Assembly: GCF_009938015.1 (NCBI RefSeq)
Contig: NZ_AP021884.1
Location: forward strand, 2,157,501-2,221,500
Direction: 5' to 3'
DNA: 64,000 bases
Origin: Sulfuriferula plumbiphila
Lineage (GTDB): Bacteria > Pseudomonadota > Gammaproteobacteria > Burkholderiales > Sulfuriferulaceae
Shown here: in pieces, positions 8,227 through 18,092 of the stretch
Layout of the letters: each line of letters opens with the position of its first letter
How positions within the stretch are numbered: the first letter of the stretch is position 1
The notes under the pieces: model-generated
Databases searched by the model: none
Told to the model about the DNA's origin: nothing
The model's input: only the letters and a program-made list of their open reading frames with translations
Made by a program: the position numbers and the translations under genes

Positions 8227-11200
8227 ATGGCAAAACGAGTTGCAATTACCGGGTTTTCCTTCAGATTTCCAGGCACGAATATCACCGAATATTGGTCGGA
8301 CTTGATGAATGGCCGCGATCTGGTGACAGAGGTCGATCCGGAACGATGGGCGCAGGACACCTTCCGCCATCCGAACAAGAATCATCCGGGAACGAGCTAT
8401 ACGTTTGCAGCAGGCTCTATCGGAGACATCTCAACATTCGATGCGGGATTCTTTGGCATTTCCCCACGGGAAGCCGCCCTGATGGACCCGCAGCAGCGAT
8501 TGCTGCTCGAAATGAGCTGGGAGGCGCTGGAAAATTCGGGGATCAAGCCATCCACTCTTCACGGTAGCCAGTGCGGCGTCTTTATTGGCATCGCCAGTGC
8601 TGACTATTCCTATCGGCTGGCCGACGATCTCGCTGCTGTTGACTCGTCGGTCGCTACCGGCAATACCGCGAGCATCGCGGCAAACCGCATCTCCTATGTT
8701 CTTGACCTGCGTGGTCCCAGTATGGCGATCGATACCGCCTGCTCGTCTTCAATGGTGGCATTTCACCAGGCATGCCGCTCGATCCTCTCGGGAGAGAGCA
8801 CCCAGGCGCTTGCAGGAGGGGTCAGCCTGCATCTGCATCCCTACGGTTTCATTACCTTCTCCAAGGCATCCATGTTGTCCCGGCGTGGGCGATGCAGTGT
8901 TTTCGACGCATCCGGCGATGGTTACGTGCGTTCCGAAGGCGGGGGTATTTTTTTCCTCAAGGACTACGACCAGGCCATAGCCGACGGCAATCCGATCCTG
9001 GCCGTCGTTGCAAATTCCGCGATCAACACGGATGGCCGAAAATCCGGCCTGACAGTGCCAAACCCAAAGACCCAGGCGGCTCTATTGGAACAGGCTTACG
9101 TCCAGGCTGGCATCGATCCAGCGGCAATCGACTACATCGAAGCTCATGGCACCGGCACGATCGTAGGTGACCCGATTGAAGCACGAGCCATTGGCGAGGC
9201 GCTGGGCAAGCGCCGCCCCAAAAATAGCCCACTCCTTATCGGCTCGGTGAAGAGCAATCTTGGGCATCTCGAAGCGGCCTCTGGCGTGGCGGGACTGGTA
9301 AAGGCGCTGCAATGCATCCAGCATCGGATGGTACCGGCAACTATTGGCCTCGAAACTCCCAATCCGAACATTCGGTTCGACGCTTGGAACATCGAGGTCG
9401 TTACCAAAAACCGGCCTCTCAAAAAAAACGGAAAGCTCATTATCGGAGTCAATTCCTTCGGCTTCGGGGGCGCCAATGCACATGTGATTCTGGAAAGTCA
9501 TGAACAACCACAATCAAAGACACCCGAACACCCCCAAGACACGCTTCTGCCAGTCATACTTTCAGCAAAGGACAGTGTCGCACTGAAAGCGGCAGCCCGC
9601 GAGTTTTCCGCCTTCCTGAAGAAGCAACCTCAGGCCGCGCTTTACGACATCGCCCACAACGCCGCATTTCGGCGCGAATGGCATGAGCACCGTACAATGG
9701 TCTACGGTGCCACACCAAAAGCCATTGCCAAGGCGCTGCTCAACTTTGCAAACGATGTGCCTGAGCAACTCATGGTGGAAACCGGAGTCGCATTGGAAGC
9801 ACCTTCCGGTGTCGCCTTTATCTACTCGGGCAATGGCTCCCAATGGGCGGGAATGGGCAAGCGCCTGCTGGAAGAGGAGCCGCTATTCAGAGAGGCCATC
9901 CGCGAAGTAGATGCCATTTTCCGTCGCCATGCCGACTACTCACTGGAGGACGAACTGGCCGGCAAGAATGGCGAAGGCCGCTACCAATACACGGAAATCG
10001 CGCAACCCGCCCTGTTCGCTCTTCAGGTCGGAATCACACAAATGCTGCGGCACCGGGGTATCACGCCTGTAGCAGTGGCGGGTCACAGCGTAGGCGAAGT
10101 GGCTGCGGCCTGGGCATCGGGCGCATTGACGCTCGAAGCTGCGGTGGATGTGATCTATTACCGTAGCCACGCGCAGGGAACCACCAAGGGCAACGGTCAA
10201 ATGACTGCCGTAGGTTTGGGGCAGGAAGTCGCCCATGACCTGCTTGCAGAACTGGGCCTGACACAGTCGCTTGCGCTAGCCGGAATCAATAGCTCCCATG
10301 GGGTGACCATCGCCGGTAGCCCAAAATTGCTCACCCGCCTTGAGTCAGCTTTAAACGAACGTGACATCTTCAATAAACGGCTGGACCTTGACTACGCATT
10401 TCACAGCCCGGCCATGGACGAAATCGAAACCAGTGTCAGACAGACACTGGCAGAACTCCAACCCAGCGAATCCCTCGTGCCGTTCTACTCGACCGTCACC
10501 GGCAATCTGCTGGATGGAACGGAACTCAATGCGGAATACTGGTGGCACAACATCCGCAAACCCGTGTTGTTCAAGCAAGCGATCAAGAGCATTCTGGACG
10601 GCGGCATCAACATCTTCATCGAAATCGGTCCCCATGCTGTTTTACGCAGTTACATCAATGACTGTCTGACAGACTTGGCGACAGAGGGCCGCATCATTCC
10701 CACAGTCGCTCGCGGTGACGATGCCCCTCAACGGGTTTGGGGGGCATGCAGCCAGGCGGTGATCGCCGGCGCAAGCATCGACTGGCAGCGCGTGTTTTCA
10801 TGGCCTGGCCGTTTTGTCCGGCTACCGAATTACCCGTGGCAGCGCGAGCGCCACTGGCACCCGGTTATGCCGGAATCCATTGGTTTGCTCGATCGGCGCA
10901 AAGTCCATCCCCTGCTGGGTTACCCGCTCCAACAGCACGAGCTCACCTGGGAAAACCAGCTCGATACAAAACTCAACCCCACCCTGGCCGATCATGTGGT
11001 CGGGGAGGCCACCATATTCCCGGGCACAGGCTTTTCCGAACTCGCCCTGGCAGCCGCGTTAGCTTGGCATCCCGGCGATCTTGCCGAGATCGAAGAACTC
11101 GAAATCCGCTCCCCGCTGCTGTTGAGCGATGACCACGCCATGCTCGTCCGCTTGAGCATCGAGGCACAAGACGGCAGCTTGACGATCAAAGGCAGGGAGC

Positions 11201-17240: not shown

Positions 17241-18092
17241 ATGGCAAATCACTTTTCCACGACCGTGTCGCAACTCATCGCGCTGATTAAGCAGCCGCCG
17301 TCTCCCGGCACGCGTCGGCCTTATCCAAAACTGCGCAACTTCATCCTTGATGTGATGGCTGAAGGGCGCCGCAAGAACACCATCAACCTGTTATTTGAAG
17401 CGGATCTCACACCCATACAGCAACATCTTGCGCAATACGCCGTGCAGCATGGCGGGCGTATTTCCATGACCACCTACATCGCCAAGTCCCTCGCCTGCGC
17501 CATTGACGAAGACAAAACTATCCATGCCTATCGGTACGGAAAGTCCAAGCTGATGGTGTTTGACGACATTGACCTTTCCATCATGGTGGAACGTGAAATC
17601 GACGGTGAAACCATGCCCATTACCCTCATCGTGCGTGCGGCCAATCACAAGCACATCGGCGATATTTACCAGGAACTCCAGGCTGCCAAGACCGCCCCAT
17701 TGGGCGAACATGGGCCAATGTCAGCCCTGGAAAAACAATTCTTCGAGCTACCCTCCCCGCTGCGCAAGATCATCTGGTTTTTCATCCGCCGCGACCCGCA
17801 TCTTTTCAAGCAACTGGCAGGCACGGTGGGAATCACATCGATGGGTATGCACGCCAGTGGCCCAGCGGTGATAATTCCCATCACCCCCATGACTTTGACC
17901 CTGTCCATTGGCGCGATCAGCAAAAGACTGGTGCTGGAGGACAGCCGGCCCGTTGAACGCGATTTCATCCAGATGAATCTCGGAGCCAATCACGACATCA
18001 TCGACGGCGCCCCGCTCATGCGCTTTGCCGACCGGTTCAAGCAGAAGTTACAAACGGGTTGCGCCCTGGCGCATCCTCAGTCTACGCAATGA
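17241..18092 (+). CDS. Stand-alone 2-oxoacid dehydrogenase E2-type acyltransferase domain
   Basis: A 283-residue protein resembling only the catalytic (CAT) domain of dihydrolipoamide acyltransferases. There is no lipoyl domain and no E1/E3-binding domain. The catalytic histidine motif, HxxxDG, is present as NHDIIDGAPLMRF near residue 250. The aspartate/glycine pair is kept, whereas the usual second residue, arginine, is replaced. No E1 or E3 gene is near, so it is unlikely to be part of a dehydrogenase complex. It lies third in the PKS operon, 10 bases after the alpha-oxoamine synthase. I infer that it transfers an acyl group, perhaps N- or O-acylating the amino-ketone lipid. Its 3' end overlaps the convergent sulfatase-fold gene by 11 bases. 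Confidence 0.8.
   Translation: MANHFSTTVSQLIALIKQPPSPGTRRPYPKLRNFILDVMAEGRRKNTINLLFEADLTPIQQHLAQYAVQHGGRISMTTYIAKSLACAIDEDKTIHAYRYGKSKLMVFDDIDLSIMVEREIDGETMPITLIVRAANHKHIGDIYQELQAAKTAPLGEHGPMSALEKQFFELPSPLRKIIWFFIRRDPHLFKQLAGTVGITSMGMHASGPAVIIPITPMTLTLSIGAISKRLVLEDSRPVERDFIQMNLGANHDIIDGAPLMRFADRFKQKLQTGCALAHPQSTQ

Follow-up and report, generated by a model that had tools for sequence, protein, structure and literature searches.

In wcb and rkp gene clusters, a type I polyketide synthase (PKS; wcbR or rkpA) is coupled with genes for capsule synthesis and export (PMC3908369; papers are cited by PubMed Central identifier, and for excerpts of their text). The rkp-1 region comprises rkpA-J, with rkpU upstream, and rkpA is one large gene in other strains (PMC7902896). 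It makes or modifies the lipid carrier or anchor of the capsule (PMC4881576, PMC3557214). Mutations in wcbR or rkp-1 diminish or eliminate the capsule. Capsular polysaccharide is greatly reduced both in a wcbR mutant (cited in PMC3961207) and in isolates with a wcbR frameshift (PMC7077878). A PKS and an alpha-oxoamine synthase (AOS) were characterized in 2025 as SgaAB, a pair whose products are sphinganines of C24-C28 and, probably, phosphoglycerol-sphingolipids; L-serine is the preferred substrate of SgaB in vitro, SgaC is a short-chain dehydrogenase (SDR) presumed to act as reductase, and 6,101 homologous putative PKS-AOS clusters, dominantly from Burkholderia, are known (PMC12134224). Capsules of groups 2 and 3 are described as having a phosphatidylglycerol (PG) anchor (PMC13410964), and sphingolipid synthesis has been linked to surface polysaccharide presentation in Porphyromonas gingivalis (PMC5126122). 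Here, we analyze a 64,000-nucleotide stretch of the Sulfuriferula plumbiphila genome (“the window”; contig NZ_AP021884.1, positions 2,157,501 to 2,221,500), in which genes for a PKS, an AOS, and a stand-alone E2-type acyltransferase adjoin a capsule locus.

A probable lipid module within an ABC-type capsule locus

The window holds an ABC-type capsule locus of the rkp-1/wcb kind, and we read the PKS operon as its lipid half. A monomodular PKS stands beside an AOS; genes for an SDR, an LtaS-like protein, and a KpsS-like protein lie in a row; and an outer-membrane polysaccharide export protein (OPX) and an ABC exporter are encoded nearby. It is the genes convergent to the operon that constitute the capsule locus, and in view of them we rejected a stand-alone, fumonisin-like secondary metabolite cluster. 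The rkp-1/wcb module serves the capsule lipid and the products of SgaAB are sphingolipids; joined, these two facts suggest that the lipid carrier or anchor of the capsule is a sphingolipid. We consider it probable that the operon, with the phosphoglycerol transferase and the SDR, makes a sphingolipid-like anchor for the capsule. The PKS-AOS pair and the capsule-lipid module are each already known. What is new is the presence of the E2 gene and the proposal of a sphingolipid anchor; in the open-licence literature, we found no link between a PKS-made sphingolipid and the anchor of rkp/wcb capsules.

The three genes are intact open reading frames (ORFs) on the + strand (Table 1). A single base (15880) separates the PKS from the AOS and 10 bases separate the AOS from the E2-type gene, the 3' end of which overlaps the convergent LtaS/GacH-like gene by 11 bases. 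Based on this spacing and on an order that is kept in relatives, we take the three genes to form an operon. Domain searches gave the PKS the order KS-AT-DH-ER-KR-ACP (ketosynthase, acyltransferase, dehydratase, enoylreductase, ketoreductase, and acyl carrier protein), with no match to a thioesterase domain in its 2550 residues. A motif script matched the KS, AT, ER, KR, and ACP motifs; the DH translation shows a near form of HxxxGxxxxP that departs from the pattern by one residue. We take the AT motifs, YAFHS and GHSVGE, to be of the malonyl type. The C-methyltransferase-like stretch is probably inactive; its first S-adenosylmethionine motif looks degenerate by eye. No second PKS of the same kind was found in the genome, where eight other matches span at most one PKS domain.

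The AOS falls in the BioF/KBL/SPT family and keeps the pyridoxal phosphate (PLP)-lysine, DELSH, and VDEAHS motifs. Its closest relatives in the PDB are an enzyme of the AONS/KBL type, followed by a serine palmitoyltransferase (SPT) chain; among plasmid records, the closest AOS is that of Pseudomonas sp. TMW 2.1634 (69.6%). The third protein matches the E2 catalytic domain PF00198 as its sole domain, with no lipoyl domain in the domain search and no E1 or E3 partners among its neighbors, which are the PKS and AOS and the capsule genes.

A sequence-only reading of the window had proposed an operon of a reducing PKS, an AOS, and an orphan E2. The co-directional ORFs, their tight spacing, and the conserved order uphold this proposal. 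The domain searches likewise bear out its PKS with all reductive domains and an ACP but no thioesterase, as well as its E2 catalytic domain without dehydrogenase partners. Two details need amending: the methyltransferase-like stretch of the PKS was overlooked, and of the gaps of 2 and 10 bases that it reported, the second stands while the first is 1 base.

On the capsule side, the closest PDB relative of the LtaS/GacH-like protein is GacH (E = 4.6e-14). The KpsS-like protein scores 266.2 bits against the NCBIfam KpsS model (cut-off 600), and the KpsC-like protein matches 6mgd (E = 1.6e-86); both exceed the PF05159 cut-off. Of the wcb gene letters, P, Q, and S are putative assignments.

Table 1. 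Genes of the PKS operon and of the convergent capsule locus, with the PKS domains, by position in the window. Kdo, 3-deoxy-D-manno-oct-2-ulosonic acid.
Feature	Position	Strand	Remarks
Type I reducing PKS (RkpA/WcbR/SgaA kind)	8227..15879	+	2550 aa, single module, no thioesterase
KS domain and C-terminal extension	8233..9696	+	DTACSS, HGTGT, and KSNLGH present
AT domain	9817..10746	+	GHSVGE, YAFHS
DH domain	10906..11724	+	D...Q matched, but not the strict form of HxxxGxxxxP
C-methyltransferase-like stretch (CurJ MT)	12040..12765	+	Residues 1272-1513, E 7.9e-8, between DH and ER
ER domain	13678..14574	+	Domain match and motif
KR domain	14650..15186	+	Domain match and motif
ACP	15502..15693	+	GLDSL
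PLP alpha-oxoamine synthase (AOS; RkpG/WcbT/SgaB kind)	15881..17230	+	449 aa, PLP-lysine motif intact
Stand-alone E2/CAT-fold acyltransferase	17241..18092	+	283 aa
LtaS/GacH-like phosphoglycerol transferase (RkpI/WcbQ kind)	18082..19614	-	YGDH motif, ~5 N-terminal hydrophobic segments
SDR of the RkpH/WcbP kind, candidate reductase of 3-ketosphinganine	19604..20383	-	GTG start assigned by choice
KpsS-like beta-Kdo transferase (RkpJ/WcbO kind)	20377..21606	-	
KpsC-like beta-Kdo transferase	21603..22673	-	Single-domain length
Glycosyltransferase group 1	22651..23817	-	
OPX outer-membrane polysaccharide export protein	24844..26178	-	
KpsT-like ABC ATPase	26991..27644	-	PF00005 only, and place in locus
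KpsM-like ABC permease	27664..28467	-	98.8 bits, NCBIfam cut-off 300
KpsE-like inner-membrane export protein	28448..29605	-	387.3 bits, NCBIfam cut-off 437.5

Two further features were seen on the - strand. A HepT-like ribonuclease and nucleotidyltransferase pair, of the HEPN/MNT toxin-antitoxin type, lies within the capsule locus (23943-24691), and a 579-residue DUF6538 protein, recombinase-like by eye, is encoded past the capsule genes (34680-36419).

Linkage of PKS-AOS pairs to capsule genes

AOS loci were drawn from 61 relatives, 369 class genomes, and 398 phylum genomes, each set including the window's own genome, at cut-offs of 1e-60 for relatives and 1e-80 for the class and phylum. Up to ~18 kb were read on each side of the AOS where the contig allowed, giving stretches of 4 to 58 kb; six AOS matches of low identity (33-37%; genomes G024, G022, G050, G045, G031, and G039) were left out of this context survey. 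The hidden Markov models (HMMs) used to score each locus had as seeds genes of the window and sequences matching them in these loci, and we set the score thresholds ourselves. The 43 loci surveyed comprise 34 with a PKS and 9 without. One or more of KpsS, KpsC, KpsM, KpsE, and OPX occurs in 22 of the 34 loci with a PKS and in none of the 9 others (Fisher test, P = 0.0005, which serves as a guide only, since the loci are related and the stretches differ in length). Counting the survey, the window, the loci from the E2 scan, and four hand-picked named records together, 28 of 42 PKS loci have at least one capsule gene. Once extra stretches were added, LtaS is present in 16 of these 42, a FemAB-like acyltransferase in 5, and both in none. 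On the same basis, KpsS is found in 20, of which 12 also have LtaS, 5 have the FemAB-like gene, 3 have neither, and 0 have both.

The gene order is kept in named relatives. Collimonas sp. OK307 has a locus identical in order to the window from PKS to OPX (identities: PKS 82%, AOS 84%, E2 67%, LtaS 68%, SDR 78%, KpsS 71%, and KpsC 67%). For plasmids, 4 of the 30 records with AOS matches were opened, chosen by hand. Sinorhizobium meliloti Ak57 carries OPX-PKS-AOS-SDR-LtaS-KpsS-KpsF in a single stretch, which is the rkp-1 set; its LtaS-like ORF is absent from the PLSDB table and was detected by HMM, and we assign the names rkpG-J to its genes, tentatively, by order. On a plasmid of Pseudomonas sp. 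TMW 2.1634, the order is PKS, AOS, PhyH, one capsule gene, GNAT, LtaS, SDR, and two more capsule genes, with KpsF, kdsB, and kdsA further on. Caballeronia insecticola has genes for SDR, LtaS, PKS, an LpxC-like protein, AOS, an export protein, and an ABC exporter. Paraburkholderia dioscoreae has KpsS, SDR, LtaS, PKS, an LpxC-like gene, AOS, and GNAT, in that order. The published wcb gene list of Burkholderia pseudomallei has the same order, with an acetyltransferase after the AOS (PMC4275268). The LpxC-like deacetylase gene lies between PKS and AOS in both Paraburkholderia and Caballeronia (L121 13040-13954 and L122 13048-13974).

The E2-type protein and a switch of finishing genes

Residues S200, H251, and D255 are invariant across eight aligned E2-type sequences; judged from this alignment, the catalytic residues of the window protein are intact. 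Its structure model is of moderate quality (mean predicted local distance difference test score 72); the score falls below 50 in two segments, residues 14-44 and, next to S200, residues 202-215. Among the 50 matches listed by VIA-align are E2 cores, 2-oxoglutarate dehydrogenases, and chloramphenicol acetyltransferase (CAT) III, and further acyltransferase families may lie beyond this listing. Two more E2 places exist elsewhere in the genome, and no E1 or E3 genes neighbor this one; on these grounds, we rejected the idea that the gene is left over from a pyruvate dehydrogenase locus.

Among PKS-AOS loci the E2-type gene is rare, and it directly follows the AOS in all six cases. It occurs with both alternative sets of lipid-finishing genes (LtaS and SDR, or a FemAB-like acyltransferase and an epimerase), and its presence goes with the clade of the PKS-AOS pair, not with the type of finishing genes. 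The E2 addition probably had a single origin. The E2-type protein appears to be a clade-specific accessory, and the role that we favor would be acyl transfer between CoA and the ACP arm of the PKS. It is not a plain substitute for the FemAB-like acyltransferase, as genomes G006 and G013 carry both; a place for it at the usual GNAT position was also set aside, with few loci only.

Matches to the E2-type protein at E ≤ 0.001 occur in 86 of the 369 genomes of the class survey. Outside the window, only those of G349 (266.8 bits) and G266 (73.2 bits) rise above 34 bits. The remaining matches are probably ordinary E2s; with nearly all class-survey matches at or below 34 bits, we dropped them as kin. 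The E2 loci L028, L029, L045, and L046 stand outside the locus gene table and the trees, since the stretches read contain neither PKS nor AOS. In G349, a 45% identical protein (L045 12167-12985) is encoded among glycosyltransferase and surface-sugar genes, on a different contig from the two AOS loci of that genome. Stand-alone E2-like proteins of 28-32% identity, annotated as 2-oxo acid dehydrogenase subunit E2, also occur on 10 haloarchaeal plasmids. In the 3 of these 10 neighborhoods that were read (L123-L125), there were no annotated dehydrogenase neighbors and no functional clue.

Seven genomes were compared for their finishing genes. All seven have the PKS-AOS pair and KpsS, the LtaS-like gene is found in two (window and Collimonas), and the other five have a FemAB-like acyltransferase. 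KpsS, epimerase, and FemAB-like genes are adjacent in four of these five; in G004, the contigs break between the epimerase and the FemAB-like gene. In the same-genus loci (L126, L006, L019, L127, and L128-L129), an epimerase-type reductase and the FemAB-like acyltransferase accompany KpsS, replacing SDR and LtaS. In a 20-row tree, the KpsS proteins from these five genomes group as a single clade (support 100/100). Because this clade holds one genus only, we count a single switch of finishing genes, not many. By analogy with Spt, bCerS, and CerR of the Caulobacter ceramide pathway (PMC11087976), the FemAB-like and epimerase set may make a ceramide-type lipid.

Proposed pathway and comparison with described systems

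In the pathway that we propose, a long, saturated acyl chain would grow on the ACP of the PKS. The AOS would release this chain by condensing it, with loss of carbon dioxide, with an amino acid, for which serine is the likeliest candidate, to give a 3-ketosphinganine. The E2-type protein would move acyl groups between CoA and the ACP arm, either in primer loading or in off-loading. The SDR would then reduce the ketone, and the LtaS/GacH-like enzyme would add phosphoglycerol, yielding a single-chain phosphoglycerol-sphinganine that looks like lyso-PG. Lyso-PG is the anchor of E. coli group 2 capsules, on which KpsS starts. Given this resemblance to the KpsS acceptor, SDR, the LtaS-like protein, and KpsS would together finish the sphingolipid and start the capsule on it. 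KpsS and KpsC would add Kdo to the phosphoglycerol-sphinganine, the capsule chain would be built on the Kdo linker, and KpsM/T/E and OPX would export the lipid-linked capsule.

More tentatively, the whole class of rkp/wcb ABC-type capsules, in symbionts, pathogens, and free-living bacteria, could be anchored by a PKS-made sphingolipid and not by PG. KpsS would have diverged to accept phosphoglycerol-sphinganine in loci with LtaS and SDR, or a ceramide-type lipid in loci with the FemAB-like protein and epimerase, and the E2-type protein would be a new transacylase for PKS-AOS pairs. If so, the 6,101 reported PKS-AOS clusters (PMC12134224) would gain a structural role, their lipids holding capsules on cells. 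Host-active sphingolipids and capsules would also belong to one pathway, with a second kind of acceptor for KpsS.

Several observations weigh against a sphingolipid anchor. LtaS-type domains are normally periplasmic and KpsS is cytoplasmic, a mismatch of topology. No LtaS was found in the five same-genus relatives searched, both LtaS and the FemAB-like gene are missing from the stretch read in 21 of the 42 PKS loci, and the SDR is weak evidence, being present in 3 of the 9 loci without a PKS too. Furthermore, wcbR mutation does not wholly abolish the capsule (PMC7077878), and three PKS loci with an AOS below 47% identity have no capsule gene. All five capsule genes are missing from the stretch in 12 of the 34 surveyed PKS loci, some of them short contigs and several ~36 kb long. 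This last count also favors a rival explanation: the sphingolipids of the operon would be free or membrane lipids with no tie to the capsule, in line with the SgaAB report, which presents its products as secondary metabolites, and the two gene sets would be neighbors through a shared cell-surface role. In that report, the SgaAB products appeared as free sphinganines and as probable phosphoglycerol-sphingolipids, and the strings “capsul” and “polysaccharide” are absent from its text (PMC12134224). We nevertheless judge this rival unlikely in view of the order conserved with KpsS and KpsC, the Kdo-linker enzymes, and of the published capsule reduction in wcbR mutants (PMC3961207, PMC7077878). 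In addition, the SgaC locus tag lies six steps of five from the SgaA tag, matching the PKS-SDR distance on the TMW 2.1634 plasmid, where a lipoteichoic acid synthase and capsule genes lie between and beside them. Going by these tag numbers, the SgaAB(C) cluster seems to be laid out like the TMW 2.1634 locus.

The AOS scores 348.9 bits against BioF (cut-off 426.45), 309.7 against BioF/Kbl, 299.3 against glycine C-acetyltransferase, and 288.5 against SPT; because no NCBIfam model reaches its cut-off, we dropped any substrate call from these scores. The AOS substrate is not readable from sequence, and the lead of the BioF, BioF/Kbl, and KBL models over SPT counts against serine. It would agree with condensation of glycine or alanine, giving a 1-deoxy or KBL-like product and an anchor that is not strictly a sphingolipid; alanine is taken up by fungal sphinganine-analog mycotoxins (PMC4523872). 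We regard this as quite improbable. The sphingoid-type amino ketone of the sequence-only reading is well supported by the kinship of the gene pair to SgaAB (PMC12134224), although its “amino-lipid pathway” left out the capsule context. That reading also allowed for acylation by the E2-type protein. N- or O-acylation of the sphingoid base, adding a ceramide-like second chain, is possible, though we lean against it. In G013 and G006, which have the FemAB-like acyltransferase by KpsS and the epimerase, E2 would be a second acyltransferase; it tracks the PKS-AOS clade and is present with both finishing sets, and it may act at the PKS step instead.

The window genes can be compared with five described systems. 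The E2-type protein shares the catalytic-domain fold and the Ser/His/Asp positions (Ser...HxxxD) with E2s of 2-oxoacid dehydrogenase complexes; unlike these, it has no lipoyl domain match and no E1/E3 neighbors, and sequence similarity is low. The rkp-1 genes of Sinorhizobium (rkpU, rkpA, and rkpGHIJ) encode PKS, AOS, SDR, LtaS-like, KpsS-like, and OPX proteins as in the window, with an AOS 48% identical in Ak57. However, Ak57 has no E2 in the stretch read, and it differs from the window, where LtaS, SDR, and KpsS are convergent to the PKS operon. In the wcb capsule I locus of Burkholderia (wcbO-wcbT), KpsS, SDR, sulfatase/LtaS-like, type I PKS, and AOS genes lie close together, as here (PMC4275268). 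Loci of the wcb type differ in the LpxC-like gene between PKS and AOS, and in having GNAT (Paraburkholderia) or the listed acetyltransferase (PMC4275268) after the AOS, where the window has E2. The SgaAB(C) cluster of Pseudomonas fluorescens MYb115 has a monomodular PKS adjoining an AOS, with an SDR nearby, a likeness of gene layout; the excerpts of its report mention no E2 and propose no capsule role (PMC12134224). E. coli group 2 capsules (kps), with a PG-type anchor and a poly-Kdo linker, share the KpsS-, KpsC-, and KpsM/T/E-like genes, whereas the window adds dedicated lipid-making genes and has a KpsC of single-domain length.

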